Below are positions 36,801-43,731 of a DNA stretch of 64,000 bases, piece after piece. Origin of the DNA: Archangium lipolyticum (GTDB lineage: Bacteria; Myxococcota; Myxococcia; Myxococcales; Myxococcaceae); contig NZ_JANKBZ010000004.1 of the NCBI RefSeq assembly GCF_024623785.1, forward strand, positions 62,001 to 126,000, given 5' to 3'. Position 1 is the stretch's first letter. The number at the start of each line of letters is the position of its first letter. Made by a program: the position numbers and the translations under genes. The notes under the pieces are model-generated. The model searched no databases, was not told the DNA's origin, and saw only the letters and a list, made by a program, of their open reading frames with translations.

Positions 36801-37046
36801 GTCGGTGACGGCGACCTGCTCTCCCTGGAGCTGGGGAGAAGTGGCGGTCACCACCACGTCCGGGACGGGTTGCTTGCTGCTGGCGTCCACCACCGTGCCT
36901 GTCAGCACGGAGGTGCCCTGCTGCGCCAGGGCGGGTGCCATCCACAGGCACACGCCCAGCGTCAACACGGCCACGAGGACGCGCGCCTGGATTCTCTGGG
37001 AACGTCGGTTCAAGGATTTGCCCTCTGTCAGGCGCCCACCCTCCAT
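33846..37046 (-). CDS. TonB-dependent Oar-like outer-membrane receptor
   Basis: 1066-residue outer-membrane receptor. After a signal peptide ending MAPALA, residues 45-130 are a carboxypeptidase-regulatory domain (VLTGTVVDASSKQPVPDVVV; YRLPQLPPGVYTLRFDREG), the hallmark of Oar/SusC-like receptors. The plug follows (GISMNGTTSPENGFLVDGLS, FIQEVNVITGGFMPEFGR), then a long beta-barrel ending in an aromatic (RLSF). It should import or export a ligand, or a secreted protein, using TonB energy; Oar of M. xanthus is needed for development and protein secretion. The ligand is unknown. The 1066-residue length is normal for the family. The adjacent lipoprotein gene probably belongs to the same transcript. 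Confidence 0.92.
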   Translation of the reverse strand: MEGGRLTEGKSLNRRSQRIQARVLVAVLTLGVCLWMAPALAQQGTSVLTGTVVDASSKQPVPDVVVTATSPQLQGEQVAVTDATGLYRLPQLPPGVYTLRFDREGFKPYSRGDITLRLNHTVRLNAELLPDSLGEVMIVQAAPPAVDVGSTRTGVSVDNALVRHLAVVGPTSKGSASRSFESLAELAPGANADAYGISMNGTTSPENGFLVDGLSAGNPALGLLGTPLSIEFIQEVNVITGGFMPEFGRATGGVMTAVTKSGSNEFQGSVFGNITPGALESAPTRVPREGSVITTSQRLWNLGDFGATLGGPVLKDKLWFFAGVAPSFTRRALDRNLNAYVLGEDGKPLKDENGFSRTELIPNTTTRYFADQRSVQYLGKLTWQVAADHSLTLSVYGTPASSGGPGRFGYNLDSGAVEVDNLNGSYEALAHRYDQDARDITLKLSSSFLDKRVLLDANVGWHHQYESTLPVDGSGIGNESGLSGTPQFQMQRTGTSAGLRRYSIRDFERLPEDSVCEPAGTTNAVRCPAGTYLLGGPGFLMERTTDRYQANVVGTLLLNALGHHVIKAGLDAEVMTNRDARAYSGGVTYVQSTDGTNFQDYRAFGYLTGPDQVFIQPVVPTSTRADALGAFVQDSWSVMDRVTLNAGLRYDTQAIYGTGGDLAFALPNQLSPRVGLVYDFTQQGRSKLFASYARYYQNAVLAMVNSQFSNITRINATRSSTPTASGGPGCDPLNQAAPYTDCRDVRNVLVPPGAPNTSLSPRYTQTFAINSPVDPDLKPQSSDEIVLGGEYEVLPRASVGATYTRRYMNEVIEDMSVNERTNFFIGNPGRGIASQFDKAVRDYDAVSVYFNKAFSDQWLAQASYTWSYLRGNYSGLYRPDANQLAPNVTSDFDLISFMENRTGTLPLDRTHAIKVYGSREFQLSPTASLDLGLSYRSTSGAPLNVLGSNPAYGTGGTFILPRGSGGRLPWVHNVDAHLGLHYKFARGLTATLTMDSFNLFNFQAVTSVDQNYTYDTVDAIVGGKPADLENLKVRGGTAAVVVNPNYQKPLSYQAPRSIRFGARLSF

Positions 37047-37132
37047 GCAACTCGGCGCCTCCGTTCCACGTGCTACACTGGGAGTTCAGAAGAAGACAAG
37101 AGAGCCCTCTTGTCCTCCAACGGAGGCAGTGC

Positions 37133-37738
37133 ATGTTCCTCGAGGATGTGGAGAAGCACGAAGGGACGAGCCCCTATTCGGAGCTGATCCGCCGTGCTCG
37201 GGAACAGGGCCAGCCACCCGCGGGCATCTGGCACTTGTTTGCGTTCAAACCGGAGATGACGAACATCCTGGCGCAGCTCACCCAGGTGGCGATGCGTGGC
37301 CCCTCGCCGCTCTCCGCCGGGATGCGCGAGCTGATCGCCGCCTTCACCTCGCGGCGCAACCAGTGTGTGTATTGAACGGACTCCCACGCCGCGGTCGCGG
37401 CGAAGCTGCTGGGAGATGAGTACAAGGTCCGAGCGGTCCTGGAGGACCTCGACACGGCCCCGATTCCGGAGGCCGAGCGGGTCCTGCTGCGCTTCGTGGA
37501 GAAGGTGAATCGCGAGTCGGAGCGCATCCAACGCGAGGACGTGGAGGTGGTGAAGGCGGAGGGCTGGACGGACGAGGCCCTCTACGACGCCATCACCGTG
37601 TGCTCGTTGTTCAACTTCTACAACCGGTGGAACGACGCCATGGGCGTGCGCGAGCACCCGGTCGAGGTCTACCAGCGCAGTGCCGAGCGGCTCGCCCAGG
37701 AGGGCTATGCGGGCCCGCCGGCCGGCAAGGAGGAGTAG
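37133..37738 (+). CDS. AhpD/carboxymuconolactone-decarboxylase-like selenoprotein (in-frame TGA as Sec)
   Basis: 201-residue protein read through an in-frame TGA at codon 81 (37373-37375). The AhpD active-site pattern Glu-x11-Cys-x2-Cys-x3-His is matched exactly with the second Cys replaced by TGA: E66, C78, U81, H85 (NQCVY-U-TDSH). The frame stays open after TGA and continues in family-like sequence (VEVVKAEGWTDEALYDAITV, CSLFNFYNRWNDAM) to TAG at 37738. A GGUC-loop hairpin starts 11 nt after TGA. GGAGG lies 6 nt before the ATG. Likely a thiol/selenol peroxidase or reductase, cytosolic. The alternative is a nonsense mutation of TGC. Divergent from the TonB receptor gene. Confidence 0.82.
37373..37415 (+). 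promoter_or_regulatory. SECIS-like hairpin for selenocysteine insertion
   Basis: After the in-frame TGA (37373-37375), 11 nt lead to stem CGCCGC (37387-37392), loop GGTC (37393-37396) and GCGGCG (37397-37402); an outer CTCCCA/TGGGAG pair (37381-37386 with 37410-37415) can enclose it. The E. coli fdhF SECIS likewise has about 11 nt before its upper stem and an apical GGUC loop bound by SelB. The bulged U of the E. coli element is not seen here. Confidence 0.72.
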
Positions 37739-37753
37739 GCGGCGGGGAGGAGC

Positions 37754-38824
37754 TCAGGGCGCCCGCGTCTGCCAGGCCTTGCGCCGCACGGACTCGCCGA
37801 TGCGGGAGATTGGCAACACCTCGTCCACCGCTCCGCGCTCGATGGCCGCGCGCGGCATGCCGAACACCACGCAGCTCGCCTCGTCCTGGGCGATGGTCGC
37901 CGCTCCCGCCTGTCTCATCGCCAGCAGCCCGTCCGCCCCGTCATCGCCCATCCCCGTCAGCAGCACCCCCACCGCGTTCGCTCCCGCCGCTCGCGCCACC
38001 GAGTGGAACAGCACGTCCACGCTCGGAATGTGCCCCGACACCCGCGGCCCATCCAGCACCTCCACCCGGTAGTACCCGCCGCTGCGCTTCACCCGCAGGT
38101 GCCGGTTGCCCGGGGCGATCAGCGCCCTGCCCTGCTGCACCCGGTCTCCCGGCGCCGCCTCCCTCACCTCGATGCGGCACAGCTCGTTCAACCGCTTCGC
38201 GAAGGCCGTCGTGAACTGCTCCGGCATGTGCTGCACGATGACGATGCCCGGGCAGTCCGGAGGCATGGGCATCAGGAACTGCCGCAACGCCTCGGTGCCT
38301 CCCGTCGAGGCCCCCACCGCCACCACCTTGTCCGTCGTCACCGACAGCAGCGTGGACGCCGGCCGCTCCGGCTGCCGTGCCACCTCGGGCTCGGATGCCG
38401 CCCGCCGGGCCAGGCGGGAACGCGCCCTGGCCGCGCCCCGCAGTGACTCCAGCAACCGGGCCTTCGATTCGCGCAGGAAGTCTCCCACGCCCAGCGAGGG
38501 CTTGGAGATGATCTCCACCGCCCCCTCCTCCAGCGCCCGCACCGCCATCTCCGAGCCCGGTCCCGCCAGCCCGGAGCACACCACCACCGGCACCGGCTCC
38601 TCCTCGCGCATCAGCTCGCGCAGGAACGTGAGCCCGTCCATGCGTGGCATCTCCAGGTCGAGCAGGAGCACGTCCGGCCGGTGGCTCTTCATCTTCTGCC
38701 GCGCGATGAGCGGGTCCGACGCCACCTCCACCACCAGGCCCGGCTCGCGCGCCAGCAGCATCAGCACCCCCTGGCGGACCACCGCGGAGTCATCCACCAC
38801 CAGCACGCGCAATACCGAAGTCAT
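37754..38824 (-). CDS. cheB: CheB methylesterase/glutamine deamidase
   Basis: 356-residue CheB. The receiver domain has D11/D12, phospho-acceptor D56 (LLLDLEMP) and K108 (ISKPS). The C-terminal methylesterase domain has the catalytic triad S173 ([11 protein letters not shown]), H199 (VQHMPEQF) and D295 (GMGDDGA). It removes methyl groups from MCP glutamates to adapt the array and is activated by CheA phosphorylation. It is the last gene of the minus-strand chemosensory operon, 3 bp after cheR. Both domains look functional, and the length is normal. Confidence 0.95.
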
Positions 38825-38827
38825 GCA

Positions 38828-39751
38828 TCACCCGCGCGGAGCGGCCTCCCCGGCCAGAGCCCGTAACGCGTACACGGTAGGCATGACCGTGCGGAATTTC
38901 CACCCGAGCCCCGTGAGGCTCTCCGAGTGCCCGAGGAAGAGAAGTCCCCTGGGTGACAGGTGCTCCACCAGCCGCTCCAACGCCCGGGCCTTCGAGGCCG
39001 CGTCGAAATAGATGAGGACGTTGCGGCAGAAGACCAGGTCGAAGCGCCCCACCACGCCGTGGCCGTCGTTCAGGTTCACCCGCTGGAAGCGCACCAGCGA
39101 GCGCAGCTCGGGGCCCGCCTTCATGCGCCCTTCCTGGCTGCCGGTGCCCTTCAGCATGTAGCGCAGGTAGGGTTTGGGAATCTCCCGTGACTTGTCCAAG
39201 GGCCAGAGCGCCCGGCGCGCCTGCTCGAGGATGCGGGTGGACAGGTCCGTCGCCAGGATGTCGATGTGCCAGCCCTCCTCGGCCGGCAGGTGGTGGCGCA
39301 GCACCATGGCCAGGGTGAAGGGCTCCTCCCCCGTCGAGCACCCCGCGCTCCACACCCGCACCCGCCGCCCCTCGCCATTGCCGGTGTCCCTCTGGGCGCG
39401 CCAGTGTGGCAGCACCTCGCGCTCCAGCAGCTCGAAGTGCCGCGGCTCGCGGAAGAAGTGCGTCTCGTGCGTGCAGAGCGCGTCCAGCAGCCGCACCCGC
39501 TCCGCCTCGTCCTCCTCCACCCGCTTCAGGTAGGCACCGAAAGACAGTCCACCCAGCTCGCGCAGCCGCCGCGCCACCCGGCCCATCAGCAGCGCCCGCT
39601 TCGCCTCCGACAGCCAGATGCCCGCCTCGCGATGGACGAGCTTCTGGTAGCCGAGGAACTCCCGCTCGGTGAGCGCCGAGGGCTCGTGAAAGGAGGCGGG
39701 CTCCTGGTCCTCCCGGTTGGACCCGCCGCGCTCTTCATGTCCTGAAATCAG
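38828..39751 (-). CDS. cheR: CheR MCP methyltransferase, starting at a non-canonical codon
   Basis: About 307 residues. The C-terminal SAM domain has VWSAGCSTGEEPFTLAM and FDLVFCRNVLIYFD. The first ATG (39586) would cut away most of the family's N-terminal helical domain, yet in-frame codons upstream encode it clearly (LTEREFLGYQKLVHREAGIW, LSEAKRALL). No ATG, GTG or TTG lies in that stretch back to the cheW stop. CTG 39751, 7 nt after a GGAG inside the end of cheW, is the best start; ATT 39748 is next. It transfers methyl groups to MCP glutamates. One base separates the proposed start from the cheW stop. Confidence 0.85.
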   Translation of the reverse strand: MISGHEERGGSNREDQEPASFHEPSALTEREFLGYQKLVHREAGIWLSEAKRALLMGRVARRLRELGGLSFGAYLKRVEEDEAERVRLLDALCTHETHFFREPRHFELLEREVLPHWRAQRDTGNGEGRRVRVWSAGCSTGEEPFTLAMVLRHHLPAEEGWHIDILATDLSTRILEQARRALWPLDKSREIPKPYLRYMLKGTGSQEGRMKAGPELRSLVRFQRVNLNDGHGVVGRFDLVFCRNVLIYFDAASKARALERLVEHLSPRGLLFLGHSESLTGLGWKFRTVMPTVYALRALAGEAAPRG

Positions 39752-39752
39752 G

Positions 39753-40274
39753 TCACGGCTCCTTCTGGATGGGCGTCTCCGCCTGGGTTCTCAGCGTGCT
39801 GGCCACCAGCACCTCCTGACTGCTGAGCACCTTGTCGATGTCCATCAGCAGCACGAACTTCTTCCCCCCGCCGGGCCGCCCCATCCCCACCAGGTAGTCC
39901 ACGTGCACCGGCGCGCCGAACGCCGGTGGCGGCACCACCTCTCCGGGCGCCAGCTCCATGACCTGCCCGATGGCATCCGCCAGCAGCCCCAGCACGAGCC
40001 GCTCTCCGCCCAGCTTCACCTCCACCACCACGATGCAGCTCCACCTCGTCAGCGTGGCCGGTGGCATTCCCAGCTTCACCGCCACGTCCACCACGGGCAC
40101 CACGCTGCCTCTCAGGTTGAACACGCCCCTCACCCAGACCGGGGCTCCAGGGATGCGCGTCACCGTGTCGTACTCGATGATCTCCTTCACCTGCAGGATG
40201 CCGAGCGCGTACTCCTCTCCGGCGAGGATGAAGCTGAGGTACTGCGTGGAGGTGGCCGATGTCTGTTCGCTCAT
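39753..40274 (-). CDS. cheW: CheW coupling protein
   Basis: 173-residue CheW. The SH3-like folds are recognisable from QYLSFILAGEEYALGILQVKEI, IPGAPVWVRGVFNLRGSVVPVVD and GLLADAIGQVMEL. It bridges CheA and the MCPs in the signalling array. ATG 40274 follows the MCP stop by 9 bp, with AGG 8 nt upstream; a GTG at 40283 is an alternative. The C-terminus is slightly extended (STLRTQAETPIQKEP), and the cheR start region is coupled to it. Confidence 0.93.
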   Translation of the reverse strand: MSEQTSATSTQYLSFILAGEEYALGILQVKEIIEYDTVTRIPGAPVWVRGVFNLRGSVVPVVDVAVKLGMPPATLTRWSCIVVVEVKLGGERLVLGLLADAIGQVMELAPGEVVPPPAFGAPVHVDYLVGMGRPGGGKKFVLLMDIDKVLSSQEVLVASTLRTQAETPIQKEP

Positions 40275-40283
40275 GGCTGGCAC

Positions 40284-41954
40284 CTAGAAGCGCTTGAACT
40301 CGCGGTCCTCATCCGGGAGCGCGGCGGGAATGGAAACACGGGGAGCCGGAGCCACGACCCCGAGCCCATTCGCCACGGCCTTCAGCCCGTGCGCGGTGGG
40401 AGCCTTCTGGACCGGAAGACGCTGCACCGGCCGGGAGGTGCGCCCCCCATCGGGCACGCGGAAGAAGGACACGAGCTGGTTGAGCGCCTCCGCCTGGGCC
40501 GACATCTCCTCCGCCGTGGACGCCAGCTCCTCCGAGGCCGACGCGTTGCGCTGCGTCACCTGGTCCACGTGCGCCATCGCCTTGTTCATCTGCGCCACGC
40601 CGCTGGACTGCTCCCCCGAGGCCGCCACCACCTCCTGCACCAGATCCGCCGTCTTGCGGATGGAGGGCACCAGCTCCGTCAGCAGCTCTCCCGAGCGCGT
40701 CGCCACCTTCACGCTGCCCGAGGCCAACCCCGAAATCTCCCTCGCCGCCGTCTGGCTCCGCTCGGCCAGCTTGCGCACCTCCGTGGCCACCACCGCGAAG
40801 CCCTTGCCGTGCTCTCCCGCCCTCGCCGCCTCGATGGCCGCGTTGAGCGCCAGCAGGTTCGTCTGGTAGGCGATCTCCTCGATGATGGAGATCTTCTGCG
40901 CGATGGAGCTCATGGCCTCCACCGTCTCCTTCACCGCCCGGCCACTCTCCTCCGCGTCCCGGGCGCCCTGCATGGCCATCTGCTCCATCTGCCGGCTGTG
41001 ATCCCTGTTCTGCGTGATGCTGGCCGTCATCTGTTCCAGACTGGAGGTGGTCTCCTCCACGCTACTGGCCTGCTCGCTGGTGCCCTGCGCCAGGCTCTGA
41101 GAAGAGGCGGACACCTGCGCGGAGGCCGAGGCGAGCGCATCGGAGCCCTCGCGCACCTCGCCGATGACCTCGGCGAGCTTCTGCACCATGCGCTGCATGG
41201 CCGTCAGCAGCCGCCCCGTCTCGTCCTGCGTCTCCGAGGAGATACGCACGGTGAAATCCCCCTCGGAGAGGCGGTCCGCCACCTGAAGCGCGTTGCTCAG
41301 CGGCCGGGAGATGACCCGGGCGAGGAGGACGCTGAGCAGCAGGCCGACGAGGAAGCTGCCCCCCATGGCGGAGAGGATCCACCCTCGCGCGAGGTCATGG
41401 GTGGCATCCGAATCGTCCGACGCCTTCTGAGAGGCCTTGAGGATGAAGTCCACCAGCTCCTCCAGCTTGTCGGAAGCGGACTCGTAGGTGTGCTGCGCGC
41501 GGCCCTGGCTGAAGGCGCGAGCCTCCTCCTTCTGATTGGAGCGCGACAGCGCGAGGATCTTCTCGTGCTCTTCCAGGTAGTCCTTCCAGAGCGCGCGGAA
41601 CTCCGTGGTCAAGCGCCGCTCCTCCTCGGTGGAGATGAACGGCTCGTACTTCTTGAAGTTGTTCTCGACGGATTCCAGCTCCCGCCGCATGTCCCGCTCC
41701 AACTGGGCCATCTGGGCGGCATCGGTCGCGAGGACGTGCTGCTGCTCGTAGATGAGGAAGTCGGAGGTGTCGGTGTTCGCGTCCGAGACGTAGGCGATGC
41801 TGGGCATCCAGTTGTCGGTCACCTCATCCGTCGCCTCGTTCATCTTGCTCAGCTGGACGATGGCGAAGACCCCCAGCAGGAGGTTGAGGAAGCTCAAGAA
41901 GAGGAAGGCGAGCAGCAGCTTGAAGGAGATCTTCAGGTCGTAGAACCAGGTCAT
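40284..41954 (-). CDS. methyl-accepting chemotaxis protein (first MCP)
   Basis: 556-residue transmembrane chemoreceptor. TM1 is [21 protein letters not shown] (about 13-33), a 4-helix-bundle sensor occupies about 35-185, TM2 is [20 protein letters not shown], followed by HAMP ([22 protein letters not shown]) and a signalling hairpin with the conserved tip [22 protein letters not shown]. The C-terminus ends EFKRF, only faintly like the CheR-binding pentapeptide. The ligand is unknown. It lies between cheA and cheW, so it is a dedicated receptor of this array. A 74-bp block at its tip is identical to the second MCP of the operon. Confidence 0.94.
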
Positions 41955-41979
41955 GGTGCTTTCTGGGGGGTGAAGAGTC

Positions 41980-43632
41980 TCAGGCCGCGGCGGCGGGCTG
42001 CGCCGCCCTCAAGGCCTGTTGCAGGAGTGCGGGTACATCGAGGATGAGGGCCACCCGGCCGTCACCCAGCAGGGTGGAGCCGGCCAGCCCGGGCAATCCC
42101 TGGCACAGCTTGCCCAGGGGCTTGATGACCGTCTGGCCCTGACCGAGCAGCGTGTCCACGGTGATGCCCGCCTTGCCCAGGCCATGGCCGATGACGACGA
42201 TGTTCTCGCGGGGAGGCAGCTCGCCACCGAGCTGGAAGTGCTCGCGCAGGCGCAGGTACGGCAACGGCTCGCCGCGCAGGTTGATGAAGCCGGTGCGGCC
42301 GGGGTGGCGCTCGTCCAGTGGCAGCTCCACGCACTCGAGCACGTTCTCCAGCGGGATGACGTATGTCTCCTCGCCCACCCCGACGGAGAAGCCCTCGATG
42401 ATGGAGAGGGTGAGCGGCAGGCGCAGGCTGAAGGTGGTGCCCTGGCCGGGCGAGGTGTCCACGGAGATGGTGCCGCGCAGCGACTCCACGTTGCGCTTCA
42501 CCACGTCCATGCCCACGCCGCGGCCGGACAGCTCGGTGATGCGCTCAGCGGTGGAGAAGCCCGGCTCGAAGATGAGGGCGAAGAGGTCCGCGTCGGAGCG
42601 CTGCTCGTCGGGGCCCAGCAGTCCGCGCTCACACGCCCGGGCGGTGATGCGGTCCCGGTCCAGCCCCGCACCGTCCTCGGCCACCTGGATGACGATGGTG
42701 CCCGCCTCGTGGAAGGCGCGCAGGGCCAGCGTGCCAGTGGGATCCTTTCCGCGCTCCTGGCGCACCTCCGGCCTCTCCAGGCCGTGGTCCATCGCGTTGC
42801 GCACCAGGTGGGTGAGTGGATCGCGGATGAGCTCCGCGACGGTGGTGTCCACCTCCACGTCCTCGCCGCTCACCTCCAACCGCACCAGCTTGCCGGTGGC
42901 CATGCTCAGGTCGCGCACCGTGCGCGTGAAGGGCTGGAAGGTGCGGCCGATGGGCACCATCCTCACCTTCATCACCAGCTCCTGCAGGTCCAGGTAGAGC
43001 CGGTCCGCCTCGCGGTGCGCCTCCAGCAGTTGCTGAGGCGTGTAGCGGTGCGCCTGCACGAGCATGGAGGTGAGGCGCCCACGCGCGATGGCGATCTCCC
43101 CGGTGATGTCCAGCATCCGGTCCAGCCGGTCCAATCCCACGCGAAGGGTGCGCTCGCGGGCGTGAGAGGGCTCGGACTGCTCGGAGCCGGACTCCCGCGC
43201 GACACGCTCCATGCCACCCCCTCCCGAGGGCGGGGCCATGGGCCGGGCGGCCTTCACCGTGCTGTCGAGCAGGGCGTGCACGTCCCTGGCCGGCAGACGC
43301 AGGTCGGGCTCGGCCACGGGCCGCAGGCCCACCAGCTCGCGCATCGCGTCCACCGACTGAAGCAGCAGGGTGCCCAGTCCCGAGTGCAGCACCAGCGCGC
43401 CCGCTTCCAGCCGGGTGAGCAGGTCCTCGAGCGTATGCGCCAGCTCCACCGCCTCGGAGAGGCCCATGACGGCCGCTCCGCCCTTCAGGGTATGCACCGT
43501 GCGAAAGACGGCTCGCAAGGTCTCCGGACCGGGAGACGCCTCGAGCGCGAGCAGGTCCTGCTCCAGGCTGGTAAGCTGCTCCTCCGTCTCGGTGAGGAAG
43601 ACAGCGTGGACCTTCTCCAACTCGGGCTTCAT
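41980..43632 (-). CDS. cheA: CheA chemosensory histidine kinase
   Basis: 550-residue CheA. The Hpt domain has phospho-acceptor H47 ([14 protein letters not shown]). No P2 CheY-binding domain is seen; a linker leads to the dimerisation helices ([20 protein letters not shown]), the ATPase domain ([36 protein letters not shown]) and a CheW-like domain ([20 protein letters not shown]). Missing P2 is common in alternative systems. ATG 43632 was chosen because the Hpt helix begins there. A sigma-54 promoter lies at 43647-43662, which would give a very short leader. No CheY gene is nearby; likely targets are the NtrC-like activator and CheB. Confidence 0.94.
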
Positions 43633-43646
43633 CTCCCCGCGTCGAG

Positions 43647-43662
43647 AGCAATCCCCACGCCA
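43647..43662 (-). promoter_or_regulatory. sigma-54 -24/-12 promoter ahead of cheA
   Basis: On the minus strand TGGCGTG-GGGA-TTGCT matches the consensus TGGCACG-N4-TTGCW, with the invariant GG and GC exactly 10 nt apart. Predicted transcription start is near 43636, only a few bases before the cheA ATG. A sister copy lies at 48062-48077 with the same flanks, and each has a heptad repeat block 70 nt upstream. Confidence 0.72.
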
Positions 43663-43731
43663 ATGTCCGCTGGTGGACAACTCCCTGGAATCACAAACAG
43701 GGGTTGCTCAACGACGACCCGGATCCAAAAC

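Follow-up and report, generated by a model that had tools for sequence, protein, structure and literature searches.

A conserved in-frame TGA and GGUC hairpin predict an AhpD-like selenoprotein in Archangium lipolyticum

The window, a 64,000-nucleotide stretch of Archangium lipolyticum DNA, carries a plus-strand gene that almost certainly encodes an AhpD-like (COG2128/TIGR01926) selenoprotein of the CMD superfamily, with UGA codon 81 decoded through SelB and a GGUC hairpin. Every close homologue (41 of 41, counting the gene in the window) has the TGA and an identical hairpin, and this conservation settles that the signal is real. AhpD-like CxxU proteins (COG2128/TIGR01926) are counted as a selenoprotein family in the consulted parts of a 2022 review (PMC9312934) and a 2026 review (PMC13188914). 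The family was new in the 2005 Sargasso Sea study, where it comprised 27 sequences (PMC1088965), and AhpD-like 1 was abundant in the GOS survey with 299 sequences (PMC2398784). These four sources agree with the first-pass annotation of this DNA, which had given CxxU variants of AhpD-like proteins as known. The occurrences of the family given in the consulted parts of the literature are marine metagenomes and one clostridial genome (PMC1794560), with no myxobacteria among them; the Anaeromyxobacter selenoproteins listed in PMC1794560 include none of the AhpD-like type. Among the literature matches listed, all open-licence papers, no title or abstract opening reported an AhpD-like selenoprotein in myxobacteria. 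The gene represents a further, well-supported branch of the known AhpD-like selenoprotein family, probably a myxobacterial one. Since that family has been in print since 2005, the advance is incremental.

Reading frame, hairpin and gene surroundings

Read from the sequence, the plus-strand frame begins with an ATG at 37133 and reaches 37738 with a single TGA as its sole interruption. The features of the locus are as follows.

37133-37738, plus strand: AhpD-like (TIGR01926/CMD) selenoprotein gene, predicted, 201 aa if the TGA encodes selenocysteine (Sec); stop codon TAG at 37736-37738.
37122-37126, plus strand: GGAGG, a Shine-Dalgarno-like sequence 6 nt upstream of the ATG, read from the sequence.
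37364-37366, plus strand: TGT codon of Cys78, the first Cys of CxxU; Cys in 41 of 41 close homologues.
37373-37375, plus strand: candidate Sec codon TGA, residue 81, at the second-Cys position of the AhpD CxxC motif; TGA in 41 of 41 close homologues.
37387-37402, plus strand: bSECIS-type hairpin with a 6-bp stem (CGCCGC/GCGGCG) and a GGUC loop at 37393-37396, assigned from conservation and the bSECIS constraints.

The active-site residues E66, C78, U81 and H85 have the spacing Glu-x11-Cys-x2-Sec-x3-His. The hairpin (CGCCGC-GGTC-GCGGCG) starts 11 nt past the TGA, and the distance from the TGA to the loop is 17 nt. Re-reading the sequence reproduced exactly the coordinates, the 201-residue frame, TGA81 and the motif spacing given in the first-pass annotation, and its hairpin was likewise right in position, 6-bp stem, GGTC loop and both spacings. 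Under the standard genetic code, positions 37133-37738 yield two fragments only, so an ordinary gene finder would cut the gene in two at the internal TGA. A consensus scan of 37000-37800 for promoters and terminators found none.

A minus-strand gene for a TonB-type receptor lies on one side of the gene and a minus-strand cheB on the other. The latter belongs to a chemotaxis cluster that adjoins the gene on the minus strand (37754-43680), where CheB and CheR were identified by Pfam; further ORFs of this region appear CheW-, receptor- and CheA-like, as judged from sequence only. A simple ORF picker was used to compare the surroundings across 12 regions, namely the window and 11 loci. A homologue of the TonB-type receptor was found in the window and in genome G006 only, and homologues of the chemotaxis cluster were near the gene in G002 and G003 as well. 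Four loci of one genus (L100, L101, L103 and L104) have two common genes preceding the AhpD-like gene, which we take to be an alpha/beta hydrolase and a CorA-type transporter. A CorA-like gene is also found near the AhpD-like gene in L102, from another genus. L098 and L099 have another setting, common to both, and L105 shares no neighbour. We set the neighbourhood aside as a clue to function: partners were common only within or between near genera, and none of them names a reductant.

Protein family and predicted fold

Family membership was assessed by profile searches in which the Sec residue was entered as Cys. The protein scored 104.7 bits against TIGR01926 (peroxidase-related enzyme, NCBIfam; cut-off 81.8) and is a member of that family, and its 38.7 bits against Pfam CMD exceeded the cut-off of 23. 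It thus shares both the curated family and the CxxU motif with the AhpD-like selenoprotein family (COG2128 YciW / TIGR01926). NF041238 (AhpD_rel_CFYUT, alkylhydroperoxidase-related (seleno)protein) gave 62.7 bits over model positions 212-339 against a cut-off of 175, and the protein is not a member. The two have in common a related AhpD domain with a C-x-x-Sec motif; however, the NF041238 model is 357 positions long and the protein here has 201 residues.

The best five solved relatives by sequence search were 2pfx, 6k40, 2oyo, 2prr and 3c1l. An AlphaFold model built with 18 aligned sequences reached a mean pLDDT of 88.5 and contained a helix at residues 79-93. When this model was searched with Foldseek, the first 16 PDB rows were chains of the same five structures (TM 0.71-0.75 by query), all of which are AhpD or peroxidase-related proteins. 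As modelled, the protein has the all-helical CMD/AhpD fold, and the active-site pair sits at the start of a helix.

The active site of M. tuberculosis AhpD consists of Glu118, Cys130, Cys133 and His137, and its relay includes His132 just before the second Cys, where a Tyr may weaken activity, according to the consulted part of PMC3141380. The Glu-x11-Cys-x2-Cys-x3-His spacing of that enzyme (1knc, 1gu9) is the same here, whereas Sec takes the place of the second Cys and Tyr or Phe that of His132. The position of His132 corresponds to Tyr80 in the window's protein; of the 41 close homologues, 2 have Tyr there and 39 have Phe. The five-residue relay of the M. tuberculosis type (Glu, Cys, His, Cys, His) is therefore incomplete in this protein. 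In fold, too, the match to M. tuberculosis AhpD was weak (TM 0.35-0.41 by query, E 0.15 or worse), and the model is nearer to 6k40, 3c1l, 2pfx, 2oyo and 2prr. The debrominase Bmp8 (6ohi, 6ohj) shares the CMD/AhpD-type fold and was matched in sequence at E 9.1e-6, but this match is weaker than those to the peroxidase-related proteins, and there is no pointer here to a halogenated substrate.

Conservation of the TGA codon and the hairpin

A survey of the family recovered a match (E up to 1e-15) in 47 of 96 genomes. Near full-length orthologues numbered 40, the window's own included, and each of them has exactly one internal stop, a TGA. Together with L017, from the MAG Deltaproteobacteria bacterium CSP1-8, whose genome also has selA, they make up the close set of 41 sequences. 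Codon 81 is TGA in all 41, down to 55% identity, and the identical 16-nt hairpin follows 11 nt after it each time. The aligned start codon is CTG in three of the 41 (L028, L032 and L037). Past the TGA, the frame is open for 118-136 codons in 38 homologues and to the contig end in the other three (L033, L057 and L059).

These data bear directly on the possibility of a nonsense mutation, a pseudogene or a sequencing error, with the TGA cutting short a CxxC gene that is dead or was misread. It is true that the TGA interrupts a frame otherwise ordinary for the CMD family, and that one relative, G003, holds a copy of a C-terminal fragment (L062) elsewhere. Against such an accident stand the shared codon and the open frame beyond it in every close homologue, and the part after the TGA does not behave as dead sequence. 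Differences at codon positions 1, 2 and 3 after the TGA numbered 33, 31 and 63 over 109 codons in the comparison with L017, and 23, 26 and 44 in that with L025; the 5, 3 and 5 differences from the closest pair, L019, are too few to say. This concentration at third positions indicates that the part after the TGA is translated and selected as protein. Because the TGA is conserved, we regard a mutation, pseudogene or sequencing error as already refuted and assign it practically no probability.

Outside the close set, a second Sec subfamily was found in seven family genomes (L064-L070). Its members share 34-41% identity with the window's protein, have the TGA at the same place in 7 of 7 cases and carry the motif CxFUT[GN]AHGAVAS. 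Three of the seven were scanned against TIGR01926 (L064, L065 and L069) and scored 91.4, 73.0 and 73.8 bits; two of them fall below the cut-off of 81.8, so curated models may miss this subfamily. A phylum-wide search gave a match (E up to 1e-20) in at least 51 of 195 genomes, a figure that undercounts the distribution, with at most 16 candidates scored per genome. In four additional genomes of the phylum, the aligned codon was TGC in three loci (L106, L108 and L109) and TGA in one (L107). Outside the window's phylum, a single scan by short peptide patterns found one relative.

Genome G003, of the window's genus, holds further copies besides the standard gene. The C-terminal fragment L062 (C1:1573245-1573487) matches residues 119-198 only, at 76% identity, and is without a recognisable Sec region. 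A TGC paralogue, L063 (C1:2143439-2143945), scores 89.6 bits against TIGR01926 (cut-off 81.8). L063 and the Sec form of G003 constitute a natural Cys/Sec pair in one organism.

The bSECIS constraints given in the consulted part of PMC13188914 are a loop of 3-9 nt, a stem of 4-16 bp, a G in the first two loop positions, a distance of 16-37 nt from the UGA and a minimum free energy of at most -7.5. The window's hairpin falls within all of these ranges, having a 4-nt GGUC loop, 6 bp, a 17-nt distance and, for the hairpin alone, -10.8 kcal/mol. Hairpins of this general kind are common in the window, where they follow 54 of 596 TGAs on the plus strand and 91 of 673 on the minus strand (145 of 1269 in total), and the 40-nt stretch has an unremarkable folding energy (z -0.36, with 68 of 200 shuffles folding at least as well). 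On these counts and this z value, the hairpin was rejected as stand-alone evidence, being too weak. The exact geometry of 6 bp, GGTC loop and 17 nt occurs once among the 1269 TGAs. An Rfam search of 37000-37800 with E up to 10 matched no family. CxxU frames that stay open for 60 codons or more in each direction from the TGA number 10 in the window, and a bSECIS-like hairpin follows in 2 of them. One is the gene described here; the other, at 2585 on the minus strand, lies off-frame within a histidine-kinase-like ORF and was taken as chance.

Could the hairpin be a mere product of codon bias and protein conservation (HAAVAA), with no SECIS function? The GC-rich window with its many comparable hairpins, the ordinary folding energy and a comparable hairpin in the TGC homologue L109 are what such an origin would lead one to expect. 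The pattern of synonymous sites is not. Among the 41 sequences, 59 columns with an invariant amino acid have more than one codon available, and the third base is invariant in nine of them. Six of these nine are the hairpin codons 85-90 (hypergeometric P 1.9e-6, a value that is indicative only because the sequences are related and not independent). The other three frozen codons, D152, F160 and Y163, are twofold. Among the invariant residues, a fourfold codon with a frozen third base is seen in the hairpin, in five cases, and nowhere else.

Pairing has also been kept through change. In the second Sec subfamily, the hairpin reads CGGCGC-GGTC-GCGTCG in 7 of 7 members, with both sides of the third pair altered from C-G to G-U. 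This two-sided change, at one stem pair of six, is probably one event inherited by the subfamily. In a set of 17 distinct sequences, every pair cell (100%) holds a standard pair. The TGA is accompanied by a GGTC hairpin in 48 of 48 sequences of the two close groups (41 and 7), and the link is imperfect beyond them. The four TGC homologues (L063, L106, L108 and L109) also speak against codon bias: none has a GGTC hairpin, and three have no bSECIS-like hairpin. Taking this evidence together, we consider codon bias with protein conservation an extremely improbable explanation of the hairpin, and favour its reading as a SECIS element.

Two of the distant loci depart from the general pattern. L109 (G118:C47) combines TGC with a hairpin of 7 bp and TGGT loop, 19 nt after the codon, that agrees with the bSECIS criteria, and the simpler statement that all TGC homologues are without a hairpin was dropped on its account. 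L107 (G190:C448), with TGA, has no bSECIS-like hairpin with a contiguous stem of at least 4 bp.

Selenocysteine decoding and proposed role

The genome that carries the gene possesses the machinery for Sec. Its tRNA-Sec scored 73.2 bits against an Rfam gathering score of 47, and ARAGORN called it SeC with anticodon TCA. Of 14 control genomes, 5 also have a hit above the cut-off of the tRNA-Sec model, which means that its score is not entirely specific by itself; ARAGORN agrees with the match in the host genome. The genes selB, selA and selD scored 320.4, 574.8 and 378.8 bits, all above their cut-offs, and passed in 2, 1 and 2 of the 14 controls, respectively.

Two other genes of the same genome carry a TGA of this kind. 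The selD gene (L049, C47:22215-23141) has an in-frame TGA in HCAG-U-AAK, which probably makes SelD itself a selenoprotein. The gene for formate dehydrogenase alpha (L111, C40:42001-42903, with L110), above its cut-off, contains one TGA in QARI-U-HSSTVPGLG. Read by eye, the sequence after this TGA could form the hairpin TGCCC-GGTCT-GGGCA, whose loop would lie 18 nt downstream; folding 55 nt for minimum energy gives other pairs than TGCCC/GGGCA. Formate dehydrogenase alpha is likely another selenoprotein of this genome. The genome likely holds three Sec genes, the AhpD-like gene, selD and the formate dehydrogenase gene, two of them with a GGUC-type loop.

Across the family, selA was found in 88 of 96 genomes. 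The AhpD-like gene is present in 47 of the 88 genomes with selA and in none of the 8 without it (Fisher P 0.0034), a co-occurrence that carries little weight, since these are related genomes and several of those lacking selA are small or incomplete. The gene is absent from 49 of the 96 genomes; 41 of these 49 have selA, and one of the 41 belongs to the window's genus.

UGA81 might instead be read as another residue by near-cognate suppression (for example, as Trp), or the two halves might be separate proteins. The part after the TGA does have a GTG start candidate of its own, which would give 80 aa from 37496-37738. Against both versions, the active-site motif spans the two halves, and position 81 is the redox Cys of the family, encoded by TGC in L063, L106, L108 and L109. 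Moreover, the synonymous sites of the hairpin, which lies at bSECIS spacing, are frozen, and every one of the 47 gene-bearing family genomes has selA. We judge a non-Sec residue or a pair of separate proteins to be very improbable. The UGA stands at a redox position, is kept in the orthologues and is replaced by Cys codons in other homologues, as expected of a selenoprotein. Because the codon and the hairpin are conserved and the Sec machinery is present in the genome, we strongly infer from these sequences that UGA81 is decoded as Sec.

The first-pass annotation had proposed a selenoprotein from the frame and the hairpin, and had named a genome without the sel genes, or relatives with TGC at this codon and neither an open frame nor a conserved hairpin, as grounds for a nonsense mutation instead. 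The search that it suggested for selA, selB, selD and tRNA-Sec found all of them. Its comparison of homologues, now carried out, gave TGA at codon 81 in 41 of 41 sequences and no TGC within the close group, TGC being confined to more distant paralogues and homologues. With the hairpin frozen at synonymous sites in addition, the selenoprotein interpretation is well supported.

In bacteria, SelB in complex with Sec-tRNA and GTP binds the SECIS hairpin and delivers Sec to the UGA. At this locus, SelB with Sec-tRNA-Sec would bind the GGUC hairpin just past UGA81, and Sec would be inserted in place of termination. By analogy with the family, Sec81 and Cys78 would act as a redox pair where the helix begins, activated by Glu66 and His85. 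Sec81 may then attack a (hydro)peroxide or an oxidised thiol substrate, after which Cys78 would resolve the intermediate as a selenenylsulfide and a cellular dithiol would reduce it again. The family and the modelled fold suggest an antioxidant-type (alkylhydroperoxidase) activity. Speculatively, the low pKa of Sec may offset the missing proton-relay His of AhpD, which is Tyr or Phe here.

A broader proposal, which we advance tentatively and consider rather unlikely, is that these proteins form a clade in which Sec is obligatory. No Cys orthologue occurs among the 41 sequences, and the frozen SECIS would fix both HAAVAA and its codons. Sec would offset the lost relay His, and the protein would serve as a dedicated selenoperoxidase or a selenium-based thiol reductase.

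With this locus, the bacterial family surveyed gains a well-supported selenoprotein. The 48 Sec sequences with two versions of the hairpin, together with a few TGC relatives, provide a natural comparison for the requirements of SelB in this lineage. The same set of Sec and TGC sequences also lends itself to comparing how Sec and Cys replace one another in the active site of AhpD.
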